Of a stretch of 34,838 nucleotides of DNA, positions 24,106 to 34,838 are shown piece by piece. The position numbers and the translations under genes are program-made. How positions within the stretch are numbered: position 1 is the first letter of the stretch; each line of letters starts with the position of its first letter. The notes under the pieces were generated by a model. That model ran no database searches. It saw only the letters and a program-made list of their open reading frames with translations, and was not told where the DNA came from. The stretch is from positions 1 through 34,838 of the forward strand of contig CANODU010000011.1 in assembly GCA_947565185.1 (NCBI GenBank), written 5' to 3'. The stretch is from an uncultured Eggerthellaceae bacterium. Its GTDB lineage: Bacteria; Actinomycetota; Coriobacteriia; Coriobacteriales; Eggerthellaceae.

Positions 24106-24261
24106 TCCGTAGGTCAGGCGCCCGCACCTCTACCGATCCGAAAAGGTCACTGCTCTTTGATGCAGGGTCAACGCTTTCGCTACCCTTTGCCAACCTCCGC
24201 TTGCCAGCAGTGCGTCCTTGGCACAATCGGATGTCATGGAACCGAAGCGAAGGAAGCGCCT

Positions 24262-26187
24262 ATGTATTACTCAAGCGGAAACTACGAAGCGTTCGCCCAT
24301 CCCCTGAAGCCGGAGGGCGTCCAGGACAAGCATGCCTACATCATCGGCTCTGGCTTGGCCGGGCTCACCGCCGCATGCTATCTGGTGCGCGATGCCCAGA
24401 TGCCCGGCGAGAACATCCACATCCTTGAGCGTGACCCGCGCGCAGGCGGCGCTTGTGACGGTTGGGATTACGCACAGCTGGGCTACACCATGCGCGGTGG
24501 CCGTGAGATGGACAACCATTTCGAGGTCATGTGGGACCTCTATCGTGATATCCCCTCCATCGAAGATCCCGATGTGAGTGTGCTGGACTATTACTACTGG
24601 CTGAACAAGCGCGACCCCAACTATTCGCTCTGCCGCGCTACCAGAAACCGTGGCGAAGATGCCCACACGGACAACAAGTTCAACCTCTCGGACAAGGGAT
24701 GCATGGAGATCCTGCAGCTGTTCTTCACTCCTGAAGAGGAGCTCCAGGACAAGAAGATCACGGAATATTTCTCTGACGAAGTGCTCAACTCCAATTTCTG
24801 GCTGTACTGGCGCACCATGTTCGCCTTCGAGAATTGGCATTCCGCACTGGAGATGAAGCGCTACATCACGCGCTTCGTGCATCATCTGGGAGGCCTGTCG
24901 GACTTCAGCGCGCTTCGCTTCACGCGCTACAACCAATATGAATCCATGATCCTGCCCCTTGAGCGCTACTTGAAGGCTCATGGCGTTGACTTCCAGTTCA
25001 ACACCCATGTGCTGGATGTGCGCTTCTCATGCGACGACGCCAAAGACGATGCGCGCAAGGTGGCCACCCAGATCACGCTGCGCCATGAGGACGCTCAAGC
25101 CCAGATCGATGCATCCGTCGGCTTACCGGATGCCCCTACCACTGACAAGGCAACAAACCCCTCCCCGGAAGAGGTCATTTCCCTCACCGAGGATGACCTG
25201 GTCTTCATCACGCCAGGCAGCTGTGTTGCCCATTCCTCGTTCGGCAGCCAGACAAAACCGGCACAGTTCGCACCCGAGCTGGTGGAAGGCGATGGGTGGG
25301 ATCTCTGGAAGAGGATCGCTGCGCAATCCCCTGCCTTCGGCCATCCCGAGAAGTTCTGCTCCACTCCTGAGCTCTCCAACTGGGAGAGCGCCACGGTGAC
25401 CACGCTCGATGACAAGATCCTCCCCTACATCCAGAAGATCTGCCATCGCGATCCCCTCTCAGGTGGCGTGGTGACGGGCGGCATCGTGTCCGTAGAGGAT
25501 TCCAGCTGGCTGCTCTCTTGGACCATCAACCGACAGCCGCAATTCCGCAAGCAAGTACCCGGCACCGTCTGCGTCTGGGTCTACAGCCTGTTCACCGACA
25601 AGCCTGGAGACTACATCACAAAACCCATGCGCGACTGCACCGGCCAAGAGATCTGCGAAGAGTGGCTGTATCACCTGGGCGTTCCCGAGGATCAGATAGA
25701 GGAATTGGCCACGAACAGCGCCAACACGGTACCCTGCATGATGCCCTATATCACCGCCTTCTTCATGCCACGCGCTGCAGGCGATCGTCCGAAGGTCGTA
25801 CCCGATGGCGCAGTGAACTTCGCCTTCATCGGCCAGTTCGCAGAGACGCCCCGCGACACCATCTTCACGACGGAATACTCCATGCGAACCGGCATGGAGG
25901 CGGTCTACACGCTTTTGGATATCGACCGTGGCGTGCCGGAGGTGTGGGGGAGCTGCTTCGATCTGCGCGTGCTCCTGAATGCCACTGTGCTCTTGCGTGA
26001 CGGCAAGCCCGCAACGGATATGAACATGAGCCTCATCGAGAAGCTCTTGCTCTCCAAGGGATTGGATGCCATCGAAGGGACGGATATCTACGGGCTATTG
26101 AAGGAGTTCAAGGTCATCCCAACAGATGAGAAGAACGCTGATGTCCCTGAACCGGCCACCGGCGCTGTCTGGCCCGGCATCCATTAG
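24262..26187 (+). CDS. ohyA: Oleate hydratase (myosin-cross-reactive antigen family)
   Basis: A 641-aa FAD enzyme adding water to the cis-9 bond of oleate and linoleate to give 10-hydroxy fatty acids, a detoxification reaction of gut bacteria. The dinucleotide motif [17 protein letters not shown] begins near residue 29. [11 protein letters not shown] (family RGGREMEN-type motif) carries the catalytic Glu. Other family blocks include [15 protein letters not shown] and NCxxWVYSL-type [15 protein letters not shown], and [21 protein letters not shown] near the C-terminus, which contacts FAD. Length fits the family (560-650). The ATG at 24262 has AAGGA 8 nt upstream; the frame opens earlier but without a ribosome site. 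It is convergent with phoR (9-bp gap). A single-gene transcript is likely. Confidence 0.95.
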
Positions 26188-26196
26188 GCGGCTGGA

Positions 26197-27600
26197 TCAG
26201 ACGCTGGGCACGCGGATGGTGAACGCAGACCCTTGTCCTGGACGGCTCTCCACGATGATGGTGCCGCCCATCGCCTCCACAGCATGCTTGGCGATGGCAA
26301 GCCCCAATCCCGTGCCACCCGTCTCCTTCGAGCGGCTCTTATCCACCCGATAGAACCGCTCGAAGATCTTCTCCTGCTCATCGTAGGCGATGCCGCATCC
26401 TTCATCGCGCACGACGAGGACCGCCTCGGGCGTTGCATCCGCTTCCTCGGGATGGCACTCCTTGCGTACGCTCACGGTGACCACGCCCCCCGCATCGCTA
26501 TAGCGGATAGCGTTGCTGATGAGGTTGCCCACGGCCTGCTCCACAAGCTCACGGCTCGCGCATACATGCACCTCTGATCCCAGCACGCGCACATGCACCT
26601 CGCGCGTGCGCGCCAGCGGCTCCATCCGCTCCATGACATCGCGCGCCAGCGTAGAGAGTTCCACGTCGCTTCTCTGCTGCTGAGCATCCACGGGATCGTC
26701 TATCCGCGAGAGGGTGAGCACGTCATCGATCAGCGCCTGCATGCGCGCGGATTCGCCATGGATCATCTCCGCGAAGGCGCGCGCCTGATCCCCCTGCGCC
26801 ATGCCGCTTGCGATGACTTCCGACGCGCCGGAGAGGATCTGCAGCGGGGTCTTCATCTCATGGGAGACATTCGCAGAGAAATCCCGACGCATGCTCTCCG
26901 CCCGAGCAAGCTCCGCATTCTGCTGCTTGAGCATCTGCTGCTGCTCTGAGATGCGCACAAGCATCGGCTCCATCTCCACATACGCGTCCCCCGAGAGAGG
27001 ATCGGTCACATCCAGCGTGTCCAGCGGTGCCAGGATATGGCGCACCAGCAGGCGTGACGCCCCGATGCCCACCAGCACGAGCACGGCCAACGTGACGAAC
27101 ATGGGCAGCATGAACGAGCCTGCGAATGACGCGAACGACTCGCGCGCTTCCGAAAGGCGTACGACGCTCCCGTCGCTTAAGCGGCATGCCGCATAGATGG
27201 TGTCAACGCCTAGCGTCTGCGATCTGCGCATGACGGCAGCAGCACCGCTTTTCTGCGCCTCTTGTATCTCAGGCCTATCCTTATGGCTTGCCGGTTGGCT
27301 TTCCGCAGCGCTGTCGAAGAGCACCTCACCCGCTTCATTCACGAACGTGTAGCGCAGATGATCTGGGAACTGATCAGCCAATGCCGCCAGACGCGCCTCC
27401 TCCGACAGCCCATCGAGCCGAGAAGCCGTGCTCTTCGCCAAGGAGAGCAAGCGCGTCTCTTCTGCTTCCTCATGGGTGAAGTAATAGACCGACACCATGG
27501 CGATGGCAGCGATGAGCGCTGAGACCAACGCAGATGCCAGCACGACGCCAAAGACCGTGGCTGACAGGCGCCGGGGCCGCTTCTCACCCACGAGGCCCAT
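26197..27600 (-). CDS. phoR: Phosphate-type sensor histidine kinase (PhoR-like)
   Basis: A 467-aa membrane kinase. TM1 (about 16-41) and TM2 (about 163-187) flank a PAS-like extracytoplasmic domain of about 120 residues, followed by a short HAMP-like/linker helix. HisKA has H247 ([11 protein letters not shown]), the N box is [10 protein letters not shown], and the G boxes are DEGCGI and GTGLGLAI. Domain order and the adjacent phoB and pst genes support a phosphate sensor that partners PhoB. The start at 27600 overlaps phoB by 17 bp, so the two are translationally coupled. There is no phoU in the window, which is unusual for a locus of this type, though phoU may be elsewhere. Confidence 0.9.
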
Positions 27601-28279
27601 CCATCCGATAACCCGATCCGCGCACCGTCTCTATGCAGCCATCCGCTCCCACGCAGGCTTCGCTCAGCTTCTGACGCAGCGTCTGCACGTGAACGTCCAC
27701 CGTGCGCGTGCTGCCCAGAAACGACATGCCCCACACCCCTTCCAAGAGCTGAGCACGCGAAAGCACGTGCCCTGCATTGGCCATGAGCATGCGCAGAAGG
27801 TCGAACTCCTTCTTGGTGAGCGTTACTGGCGCGCCCCCCGCCGTGACCTCATGGGAGGCGGCGTCCAACGTCACGGGCCCTAAGGACATGCGCTCGTTCG
27901 GTGCCACCGCAGGCGTCTGCGACCTGCGCAAAAGCGCCCGCACGCGCGCCAAGAGCTCCACCATGCCGAATGGTTTCGCCAGATAGTCATCGGCTCCCGC
28001 ATCCAGCCCGCTCGCCTTGTCCAATTCGGTCCCTTTTGCGGTGAGCATCATGATGGGCAGATTCTTCGTCACGGCATTGCTGCGAAGATGGCGCAAGATC
28101 TCAAGGCCGTCCATGCCAGGGAGCATGATGTCCAGAAGCACCGCGTCAGGCAGGCGATGCTTGCACGCTTCGAAGAATGCCTCAGCGCGAGGGAAACCTT
28201 CGGCCTCGATGCCAGATTGCCGCAAGGTATAGAGCGTGAGCTCCAAGATGTGCTCATCATCTTCCACGTAGTAGATCAT
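27584..28279 (-). CDS. phoB: Phosphate-type response regulator (PhoB/OmpR family)
   Basis: A 231-aa two-domain regulator. The receiver has the acidic VEDDEHI and phosphate-accepting D50 (LLDIMLPGMDG), with switch T and K in MLTAKG and AKPFG. The C-terminal winged helix (VTLTKKEFDLLRMLMANAG, TVDVHVQTLRQKL and SGYRM) is of the OmpR/PhoB type. The ATG at 28279 is preferred over GTG at 28285: a TAGAAT box ends six bases before it, giving a leaderless mRNA, and no ribosome site exists for either. Its promoter carries a perfect palindrome and a Pho-box-like direct repeat. It probably activates the pst genes and itself under phosphate limitation. Confidence 0.93.
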   Translation of the reverse strand: MIYYVEDDEHILELTLYTLRQSGIEAEGFPRAEAFFEACKHRLPDAVLLDIMLPGMDGLEILRHLRSNAVTKNLPIMMLTAKGTELDKASGLDAGADDYLAKPFGMVELLARVRALLRRSQTPAVAPNERMSLGPVTLDAASHEVTAGGAPVTLTKKEFDLLRMLMANAGHVLSRAQLLEGVWGMSFLGSTRTVDVHVQTLRQKLSEACVGADGCIETVRGSGYRMDGPRG

Positions 28280-28283
28280 GGGC

Positions 28284-28315
28284 ACATTCTAGCGGCTGAC
28301 ATGCCGCTAGAATGT
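28284..28315. promoter_or_regulatory. Perfect 13-bp palindrome covering the phoB -10 box
   Basis: ACATTCTAGCGGC (28284-28296) and GCCGCTAGAATGT (28303-28315) are exact reverse complements around TGACAT. Read on the minus strand, the second arm contains TAGAAT (28286-28291), the likely phoB -10, six bases before the ATG. No T run follows, so it is not an intrinsic terminator for pstB; it looks like an operator or an RNA hairpin at the start of phoB. Confidence 0.65.
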
Positions 28316-28348: not shown

Positions 28349-29197
28349 CTAACCGAACCGCCCCGCCACGTAGTCTGCAGTGCGCGGATCCACCGGCTCC
28401 GTGAAGATGTCCTCCGTTGGCCCCGCCTCCACCATCTCTCCCAGCAGGAAGAACGCCGTCTTGTCAGAGACGCGCAGCGCTTGCAGCATGTTATGCGTGA
28501 CCATGATCACGGTGTATGAGCGCTTGAGCTCTCCCACCAGCTCTTCGATCTTCGCCGTGGAGATGGGATCCAAGGCGCTCGTTGACTCATCTAACAAGAG
28601 CACCTCCGGCTTCACCGCCAAGGCGCGAGCGATGCAGAGGCGCTGCTGCTGACCACCAGAGAGCCCGAGCGCGCTCTTGCGCAGACGGTCCTTCACCTCA
28701 TCCCACATGGCCGCATCTCGAAGCGACTGCTCTACGATCCCATCCAGCTGCGCCCGGTCCTGCACCCCATGGGTGCGCGGGCCGAACGCCACGTTGTCGT
28801 AGATGGACATAGGGAACGGATTCGGCTGCTGGAACACCATGCCCACCCGGCGGCGCAGGCTGTTCACCGGGATATCCTCATAGGCGTTCTGGCCATCCAG
28901 CGTGACCAGGCCCTCCACCCGACAATCTGGCACCAGATCGTTCATGCGATCGAGCGTCTTCAGCAAGGTAGACTTCCCGCAGCCCGACGGCCCGATGAGC
29001 GCCGTCACCTGGCGCTCGGGGAAATCAAGGCTGACATCCTTCAGAACGTGGAAGCTCCCATAATGAAGATCCAGTCCGATCACGCTCATCTTCGACGCGC
29101 TCTCTTGCCCACGCTCAGCGCGAAGCCCCCGTAAAGCCTCTTCCACGCCGCCAGCTCCCATCAAAGCATCCCGCGTCCTTGCTACAGCCTCAAGCAT
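28349..29197 (-). CDS. pstB: Phosphate ABC transporter ATP-binding protein
   Basis: A 282-aa ABC ATPase driving phosphate uptake. Motifs: Walker [10 protein letters not shown] (69-77), Q-loop [16 protein letters not shown], which is PstB-specific, signature LSGGQQQRL, Walker [14 protein letters not shown] and the switch His in VTHNM. The N-terminal 36 residues (to SASK) are unusual, because most PstB proteins begin near [11 protein letters not shown]. The first ATG (29197) overlaps the pstA stop by 8 nt and has AAAGGAG directly against it, too close for normal initiation. ATG at 29089 is the alternative. Chosen by coupling to pstA, with low certainty for the first 36 residues. It is the last pst gene, 62 bp before the phoB promoter region. 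Confidence 0.95.
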
Positions 29198-30035
29198 CTC
29201 CTTTGGTCCTTCCGTTCAAGCGACCGACAGCCGCATTCGTTCCCACATTAAGCAGCATCACCACCACGAGCAGCACCACCGCAGTGGCATAGGCCTCACC
29301 CACATGCAAACCCTCGCTCGCCAGCACATACATATGCTCTGCCAACGTCCTGCATGAATCGAACAAGGCGAAGACGCCTTGGCTTGCAAAGTCTGGGACC
29401 TGCGCCACGGTACCCGCCGTGAACAGAAGCGCCGCCACCTCACCTACGCACCGACCAAGCGCCAAGAGCGCGCCCCCTAAGATGCCAGGAGCAGCCGAGG
29501 GCAACACGCATCGAAAGACGGTGCGCACGCGTCCCGCACCCAGAGCGAAGCCACCCTCCCGATAGGATCGGGGGACGGCCAGAAGAGCCTCTTCGGTGGT
29601 GCGCATGATCACGGGCAGCACCATCACGGCAAGGGTGAACGCGCCCGAGAGAAGCGACATGCCCCAGCCCAGAAGCGTCGTGAAGAACAGCAGCCCGAAC
29701 AGGCCGTAGATGATGGAGGGAATGCCTTGCAGGGTCTCTGTGGTCACCCTGACCAGGCGCACGAACCTGCTCGTTTCGGATGCGTACTCCACCAGATAGA
29801 TGGCTGAGGCTATGCCTGTGGGAACCGCCAGCAGGAGCGCGAGCGCTGCCATGAGGAATGTAGAGATGAGCGCTGGCATCAATGAGACGTTCTCTGAGGT
29901 GTATTCCCATGCGAACAGCGACGGCGTGAGGTATGGCACGCCCTTCACCAAGATGAATGCGACGAGCCCAACCAAGATGAGGGCTGTGATGGTCGCTCCC
30001 GCATAGACCAGTCCCCGCAAGACCTTGCTGCTCAC
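29190..30035 (-). CDS. pstA: Phosphate ABC transporter permease PstA
   Basis: A 281-aa inner-membrane permease with six hydrophobic segments. It carries the PstA-type loop [15 protein letters not shown], and the inner-face EAA motif ([20 protein letters not shown]) contacts PstB. The start GTG at 30035 overlaps the pstC stop (GTGA), showing tight translational coupling. It pairs with PstC to form the membrane channel of the phosphate importer. There are no missing segments. Length matches the family. Confidence 0.95.
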
Positions 30036-30889
30036 GAGCGCTCACCTCGATTCTTGATGGCATTGAAGAGGGCGCATATCAAAAGCACGAATACGAAGAG
30101 CACGACTCCTGTGGCAATGAGGGCACCACGGTGAAGATCCGCTGCATAGCCCATCTCCAACACGATGTTTGCCGTCATGGTGCGCACGCCTTCGAAGATG
30201 GATGTGGGGATCACGGCCTGGTTGCCGGCCACCATGACGACAGCCATGGTCTCGCCTATAGCGCGCCCCACACCCAGCACGATGGCAGCCATGATGCCGG
30301 AGATAGCCGCTGGAACGACCACGCGGAAGACGGATCGCTCATGGGTGGCACCCAAGGCCAGCGCGCCTTCGTAATACGCCTTCGGTACCGCATCAAGCGC
30401 ATTCTTCGCCACCGTGATGATGGTGGGGAGCACCATGATGCCCAAGATGATGGCTGCCGCCAAAAGCGAGAGCCCGCGCCCCGGCGCCAGCTCGCGGATG
30501 AGCGGCACCACCAGCATCAATCCGAAGAAGCCATAGACCACTGATGGGATGCCAGCCAAGAGCTCCACGCCAGAGCGCAAAAGGGAGGAGATGCGCCCAC
30601 CGGCGAACCGTGACAGGAAGATGGCCGTCAACAGGCCGGTCGGCACGCCGATGATGATAGCCCCTGCCGTCACGTAGATGCTGCCCACGATCATCGGGAA
30701 GATGCCATAGATGTCAGCAGAGGGCTTCCACGTAGTGCCGAAGAGGAAATCGGGCAAGCCGATCTGAGCCATGGCTGGGATGCCGTTCGCGAACAGGAAG
30801 AGGCAGATGAGCGCCACGGCAAGGGTGGATATGAGGGCGGCCGCGCCGAAGAGCACGCGCGCCAGCCCCTCTTTCATGTTCGTCTCCAC
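30032..30889 (-). CDS. pstC: Phosphate ABC transporter permease PstC
   Basis: A 285-aa permease with six hydrophobic segments. Markers are AGIPSVVYGFFGLM, the EAA-type loop VPKAYYEGALALGATHERS and the GVGRAIGETMAVVMVAGN motif typical of PstC. GTG at 30889 has AGGAA about 7 nt upstream; ATG at 30877 with GGAG is equally good. It lies 9 bp after pstS and overlaps pstA by four bases. Together these genes form the importer core PstSCAB. Confidence 0.95.
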   Translation of the reverse strand: METNMKEGLARVLFGAAALISTLAVALICLFLFANGIPAMAQIGLPDFLFGTTWKPSADIYGIFPMIVGSIYVTAGAIIIGVPTGLLTAIFLSRFAGGRISSLLRSGVELLAGIPSVVYGFFGLMLVVPLIRELAPGRGLSLLAAAIILGIMVLPTIITVAKNALDAVPKAYYEGALALGATHERSVFRVVVPAAISGIMAAIVLGVGRAIGETMAVVMVAGNQAVIPTSIFEGVRTMTANIVLEMGYAADLHRGALIATGVVLFVFVLLICALFNAIKNRGERS

Positions 30890-30898
30890 GACGCGTTC

Positions 30899-31819
30899 CT
30901 AGCCCAAGACCTCGGCCCACGTGAGGACATCCCCCGAGAAGATATCCTTGACCTGGTCAGTGGTGAGCGCGGCGATAGCGGAGGCGGGAGACACGATGAC
31001 CGCGATGCCATCCTGGGCGATGGCCTCAGCAAAGAGCCCTCTCCCCTCTTCCGATTCCTTGAGGTCGCGAGATGCCATGCCGATATCAGCAGTCCCTTCT
31101 GCGGCCATGTTCACCCCCGTGGTGGAATCCGATGTCTGGATCTCCACCGTGGCGTCAGGATTCAGCGCCTCATAGGCTTCCGCGAGCTTCTCCATCACAG
31201 GCGACACGGAAGACGATCCCGCCACCACGATCTTGCCCCCTTGTCCAGAAGCGACATACGGCTGAAGGTCTGTTGCCATGGATACATAGCCGTTCTCCTC
31301 CACCACAGCCTGCCCATCAGCGCTCATGATGTAGGTGATGAAATCCTGCGCGGGAGCGGAGAGCCCTTCCTTGGTGACGATATTGAACGGGCGCGCGAGC
31401 TTGTAGGTGCCATCCTTCACATGCTCCGCCGCAGCCTCCACGCCATCGATCTGGACCGCCTTCACGGTATCATCCAGCGAGCCAAGGGAGATGTAGCCGA
31501 TAGCTTCCGGATCAGAGGCCACTGACGCCATCATGACGGAGGTGGAATTCGTGATGGCGGCTGAATCGGTGGTCATATCCATCTTCTTGCCGTCCACCTC
31601 CTCTTCCAGTCCCACCAGCTCCACGAAAGCCGAGCGCGTGCCACTGCCGTCTTCGCGCGAATAGACCGATATTCCCGCGTCAGAGCCAGCAGAGCCCTGC
31701 TCCCCCTGCGCGCTTCCGCCAGATCCGCTCCCGTGCCCGCACCCAGTCACAAGAAGCGCCACGGCTGCTAGAGCAAGCGCCGTCGCTGCCATCACGGGTA
31801 TCCTCTTCATCCTTTGCAT
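30899..31819 (-). CDS. pstS: Phosphate-binding lipoprotein PstS, circularly permuted
   Basis: A 306-aa secreted lipoprotein with a signal peptide and lipobox LVTGC (Cys27). Its two halves occur in reverse of the usual order. Residues about 50-180 start with SVYSREDGSGTRSAF and run through AIGYISLGSLDDTVKA to MSADGQAVVEENGYVSM, which is normally the C-terminal half. Then a linker leads to KIVVAGSSSVSPVMEKLAEA, SDSTTGVNMAAEGTADIGMA, QDGIAVIVSP and TTDQVKDIFSGDVLTW at the very end, normally the N-terminal half. All phosphate-site blocks remain (SSSVSP, GSGTR, DSTTG). ATG at 31819 has GAAAGGA upstream; ATG at 31810 is possible. It heads the pst operon, with a Pho-box-like repeat at 31903-31919. 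Confidence 0.9.
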   Translation of the reverse strand: MQRMKRIPVMAATALALAAVALLVTGCGHGSGSGGSAQGEQGSAGSDAGISVYSREDGSGTRSAFVELVGLEEEVDGKKMDMTTDSAAITNSTSVMMASVASDPEAIGYISLGSLDDTVKAVQIDGVEAAAEHVKDGTYKLARPFNIVTKEGLSAPAQDFITYIMSADGQAVVEENGYVSMATDLQPYVASGQGGKIVVAGSSSVSPVMEKLAEAYEALNPDATVEIQTSDSTTGVNMAAEGTADIGMASRDLKESEEGRGLFAEAIAQDGIAVIVSPASAIAALTTDQVKDIFSGDVLTWAEVLG

Positions 31820-31902
31820 GGATCGTGCATCCTTTCCTCGTCGATGTGTTCTCCAACGTGAAAACAGCATCGCCTGTGGGCATCAAACTGATATCAGAGC
31901 TC

Positions 31903-34735: not shown

Positions 34736-34838
34736 GGCTGTATCAGGGGGACGGAGGAGGGCTGTATCAGGGGGACGGAGGAGGGCTGTATCAGGGGGAC
34801 GGAGGAGGGCTGTATCAGGGGGACGGAGGAGGGCTGTA
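34736..34838 (+). repeat. Perfect 24-bp tandem repeat array, open at the window edge
   Basis: Four exact 24-nt units (34736-34759, 34760-34783, 34784-34807, 34808-34831) plus 7 nt of a fifth. Each unit is GGCTG followed by TATCAGGGGGACGGAGGAG. The 18-19 nt core differs by one base from the arm of the 32-bp palindrome at 5444-5510. There are no spacers, so it is not CRISPR. The array continues beyond the window. Confidence 0.95.

Follow-up and report, generated by a model that had tools for sequence, protein, structure and literature searches.

In Streptococcus pneumoniae, SP_2084 is the PstS of the Pst1 transporter (PMC6722419), a system that is induced by low phosphate and required for optimal uptake of inorganic phosphate (Pi) at low Pi; the two pneumococcal Pst systems have been called evolutionarily distinct, in a paper that makes no mention of any permutation (PMC4913102). 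The names are crossed: SP_2084 is 'pstS 2' in the PDB sequence record, yet its operon is named Pst1. In its structure, PDB 4H1X (released in 2012), the two halves follow the same order as in the PstS described here, with which it is collinear end to end. The canonical short PstS proteins (TIGR02136; 4gd5, 4q8r, 1twy and the pneumococcal 4exl) share with the latter the homologous halves, the phosphate-contact positions and the operon, yet their halves run N-C rather than C-N, they lack a linker between the old termini, and their lipid anchor would be located on the other lobe. MglB-2 of Treponema pallidum, which serves an ABC importer as its lipid-anchored binding protein, is likewise circularly permuted, although it belongs to another family, exhibits a type I fold and is concerned with glucose; its authors proposed the class 'Type Ic' and considered tethering a possible reason for the topology (PMC4990184). 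The open-access literature yielded no relevant paper on PstS together with circular permutation or on the code 4H1X, nor was a paper behind the Synechocystis entry 9L8J ('evolutionary hotspot') found there.

The window, i.e. the whole stretch of 34,838 nucleotides of Eggerthellaceae DNA that was analyzed, codes for a pst locus with the following features:

31739..31819, minus strand: signal peptide and lipobox LLVTGC, read from the sequence, with the lipidated cysteine at C44 of P0001
30899..31819, minus strand: pstS, coding for the circularly permuted phosphate-binding lipoprotein (306 aa when started at M18)
31271..31678, minus strand: residues 65-200, the half that comes first and corresponds to the C-terminal half of canonical PstS, ISVYSREDGSGTR...VVEENGYVSM (profile and PDB-chain matches)
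31241..31270, minus strand: linker from the old C-terminus to the old N-terminus, about residues 201-210 (HMM boundaries)
30902..31240, minus strand: residues 211-323, the half that comes last and corresponds to the N-terminal half of canonical PstS, GGKIVVAGSSSVSP...DIFSGDVLTWAEVLG (profile and PDB-chain matches)
30032..30889, minus strand: pstC permease (TIGR02138, 281 bits, cut-off 196)
29190..30035, minus strand: pstA permease (TIGR00974, 244 bits, cut-off 193)
28349..29197, minus strand: pstB ATPase (TIGR00972, 387 bits, cut-off 343)
27584..28285, minus strand: phoB-type response regulator (Pfam PF00072 and PF00486; TIGR02154, 219 bits, below the cut-off of 296)
26197..27600, minus strand: phoR-type sensor histidine kinase, H-box present (ORF sequence)

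The permuted gene thus heads a pstSCAB-phoB-phoR operon, as the first-pass annotation had proposed: pstC, pstA and pstB each score above their NCBIfam cut-offs and are followed by the PhoB-type regulator and the histidine kinase. A comparable setting is found for other permuted pstS genes: at 72 of 79 named loci, genes for pst permeases follow downstream. SP_2084 also belongs to a pst operon adjoining a PhoB/PhoR-type two-component system (PnpRS), yet its host is of another phylum and its operon ends with phoU, whereas PhoU (TIGR02135) was not found in the whole genome of the window, although pst-phoBR is present. Of 60 genomes from the window's family, just 6 reach the TIGR02135 cut-off. An alternative ATG at 31870 would open a 323-aa ORF (P0001; 30899-31870, minus strand). 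The start at 31819 (M18), which had been chosen earlier, is the likelier one because a ribosome-binding-like GAGGAAAGG lies about 11 nt upstream of it. The lipobox had been described as kept, and it does precede the permuted fold, ending at C44.

The earlier claim that the two halves of this PstS are swapped was borne out by comparison with canonical proteins. NCBIfam TIGR02136 matches in two stretches, residues 213-321 on profile positions 40-155 and, at the DNA level, about residues 63-198 on positions 160-295, and hence in swapped order. Canonical PstS chains of the PDB behave in the same manner (in 4q8r, for example, chain residues 6-113 are matched by query residues 214-321 and chain residues 114-240 by query residues 61-193), and the match to Pfam PF12849 is likewise split into two stretches. 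The first-placed half does match the canonical C-terminal half. Both halves are complete, as had been noted; they are joined by the linker ATDLQPYVASGQGG, and the canonical N-terminal half runs to the stop codon. A profile comparison of the two PstS halves, bearing on whether the cut lies at a pseudo-twofold equivalent position, detected no similarity. The protein falls outside the canonical subfamily TIGR02136, in that its whole-protein score of 187.2 bits is below the cut-off of 206.6 and its N-half does not precede its C-half. The permuted order explains why the NCBI PstS subfamily model ranks it under the cut-off, and permuted PstS proteins may therefore be under-annotated.

The predicted structure leads to the same picture. 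The AlphaFold model, for which the input was an alignment of 57 permuted proteins, is a single intact PstS fold (pLDDT 94.4, pTM 0.86), and its top fold match is the permuted 4H1X over the whole length (Z 37.4, rmsd 1.0 Å over 257 residues, 22-279 on 35-291). The canonical structures 1twy and 4gd5 superpose on the model across one half only. By sequence, too, 4H1X is the best match in the PDB; the window PstS is 46% identical to it (64-321 on 8-264), with E values of 3e-65 for the single sequence and 3e-110 for the profile. A misassembly or local rearrangement of one contig could in principle generate such an order, and the window does come from a 94-contig draft genome. This explanation has virtually no chance of being correct: the same order is shared with 39 other Coriobacteriia genomes, mostly at 56-66% identity and several of them in a single contig, and it recurs in 80 named genomes and in 4H1X. 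Independent genomes, among them the single-contig G030, G070, G090 and G203, and a solved structure thus refute the artefact, and the recurrence of the order in 127 ORFs also excludes chance. The window PstS has undergone a genuine circular permutation; it is not the product of misassembly, nor is it the only one of its type, and it belongs to an existing, little-noticed clade of permuted PstS proteins of the 4H1X/SP_2084 type.

The phosphate-contact residues of E. coli PstS, which we take to be T10, F11, S38, D56, R135, D137, S139, G140 and T141, map one to one, in an alignment restored to canonical order, to S220, S221, S249, S267, R72, D74, S76, G77 and T78 of the window protein. The first-placed half carries R72, D74, S76, G77 and T78, and the last-placed half carries the four serines. 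The position of E. coli D56 is a serine, as in canonical relatives (e.g. GASSREL in L147); the contact positions hold family-typical residues, and the contact blocks are kept as had been proposed. It is very improbable that the gene is degenerate and non-functional, retained by chance at the head of its operon. Its low TIGR02136 score (187 bits against 206.6) could be read in that manner, yet it accompanies the splitting of the match into two stretches; moreover, the frame is open, the contacts are kept, and 28 alignment columns are invariant across the 57 permuted proteins. A second PstS was not found in the window's genome (92% complete, 94 contigs), which also speaks against a degenerate gene. 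We infer that the window PstS is functional, and we are highly confident in the overall reading of a working high-affinity PstS and true permutant, with a single origin in Bacillota, probably via duplication, and a later, probably horizontal, spread.

Such a protein would hold Pi between its lobes and pass it to PstCAB (through the PstCA permease), as ordinary PstS does. The break in the chain lies in a short loop, directly ahead of the lobe 2 strand from which the SREDGSGTR phosphate loop follows, and the old C- and N-termini are bridged by the linker of about 10 residues. If the lobes of the PstS fold are assigned as we presume them to be, the lipid anchor would lie on lobe 2, before the strand into SREDGSGTR, rather than before the first strand of lobe 1 as in canonical PstS.

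The earlier description implied that the permuted form is rare. A survey of half order in Coriobacteriia, other Actinomycetota and Bacillota and in named genomes supported the reality and recurrence of the order but not the implied rarity, since the order is common and a solved structure has been available since 2012. At the 163 loci examined, the architecture is C-N in 127 ORFs, N-C in 33 and N-C-N-C in one; these and the following figures are sampled counts rather than a census. The C-N order is carried by Streptococcus, Carnobacteriaceae, Aerococcaceae, Peptoniphilus, Lachnospiraceae, Ruminococcus, Fibrobacter and most of the Eggerthellaceae sampled, and the named carriers include Streptococcus, Granulicatella, Trichococcus, Aerococcus, Peptoniphilus, Blautia, Ruminococcus bromii, Anaerotignum and Fibrobacter. 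Forty of 248 Coriobacteriia genomes contain it (36 from the window's family, 4 from other families of the order), as do about 13 of 348 Bacillota genomes, the centre genome included; among 246 Actinomycetota genomes it is confined to the window's family. All but 2 of the 36 carriers in the family are devoid of a second PstS match, and the permuted protein is therefore usually the only PstS found there.

For the phylogenetic analyses the permuted proteins were reordered beforehand to the canonical order. They form one clade, the window protein included, in a tree of 156 sequences (SH-aLRT 99) and in a careful tree of 74 (96/81). In the latter, this clade is nested in a mainly Bacillota canonical group (100/98), and the permuted rows of Eggerthellaceae and Coriobacteriia are nested within the clostridial ones. 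The sequences thus support a single permutation event in Bacillota, which is not proven because the canonical sample is small (35 rows), and the form was probably transferred later, horizontally, into Eggerthellaceae and Fibrobacterota. The C-N order could also come from a deletion spanning two different pstS genes that lie side by side, such that half-genes of two paralogues were fused, and the half trees, which are weaker than the joint ones, are weakly resolved. We consider this very unlikely, given the single clade of the joint tree and the single clade of all permuted rows in the C-half tree (85). Taken by itself, the N-half tree requires two changes, yet its starred branches force no more than one, and a route from the same gene exists.

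A single-gene permutation would probably have proceeded by tandem duplication of pstS, followed by loss of the outer halves. In nearly all permuted proteins the joining linker is 9-15 aa long (HMM boundaries), and the opened loop comprises 4-7 residues in canonical proteins. Genome G572 codes for a 544-aa head-to-tail canonical PstS (L128:1050-2681, minus strand) of N-C-N-C architecture with two similar complete copies. Head-to-tail duplication of one PstS therefore happens, and is the expected first step of this route; L128 is from another lineage and is not a direct ancestor of the permuted clade. Five proteins of 382-397 aa (L124-L127 and L130) were considered as C'-N-C remnants and rejected, the best score of their N-terminal extension against the C-half being an unconvincing 5.5 bits. 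All five are canonical PstS proteins extended at the N-terminus by a further domain, about 100 residues long and Ig-like by sequence reading.

The extent, the single origin and the lipid-anchor shift of permuted PstS seem to be undescribed. With somewhat less than even confidence, we propose that these proteins constitute a large clade of single origin, spanning Bacillota, Eggerthellaceae and Fibrobacterota and not previously described as permuted, in which the anchor has moved and which, in most of the Eggerthellaceae that carry it, supplies the sole PstS detected; this would point to a selective benefit for binding proteins that are tethered. Permuted PstS provides a clean natural case of circular permutation in the binding protein of a core transporter. 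Ordinary and permuted forms share phyla and at times a single genome (G291, G060, G193), which opens questions about permutation, the position of the anchor and docking to the transporter to testing.

Several additional observations concern individual loci. A very divergent permuted PstS in genome G406 (L129:608-1561, plus strand; 35% identity, long branch) could be an old member of the clade or an independent permutation. In Streptococcus ictaluri (L036:5863-6483, plus strand) the C-half is located in a separate ORF, and the gene may therefore be frameshifted. In the window itself, a 676-aa ORF at 24157-26187 (plus strand), oleate hydratase (MCRA family)-like by eye, converges on the end of phoR, and a perfect 24-bp tandem repeat, GGCTGTATCAGGGGGACGGAGGAG, occupies 34736-34838 in 4.3 copies and reaches the contig end.
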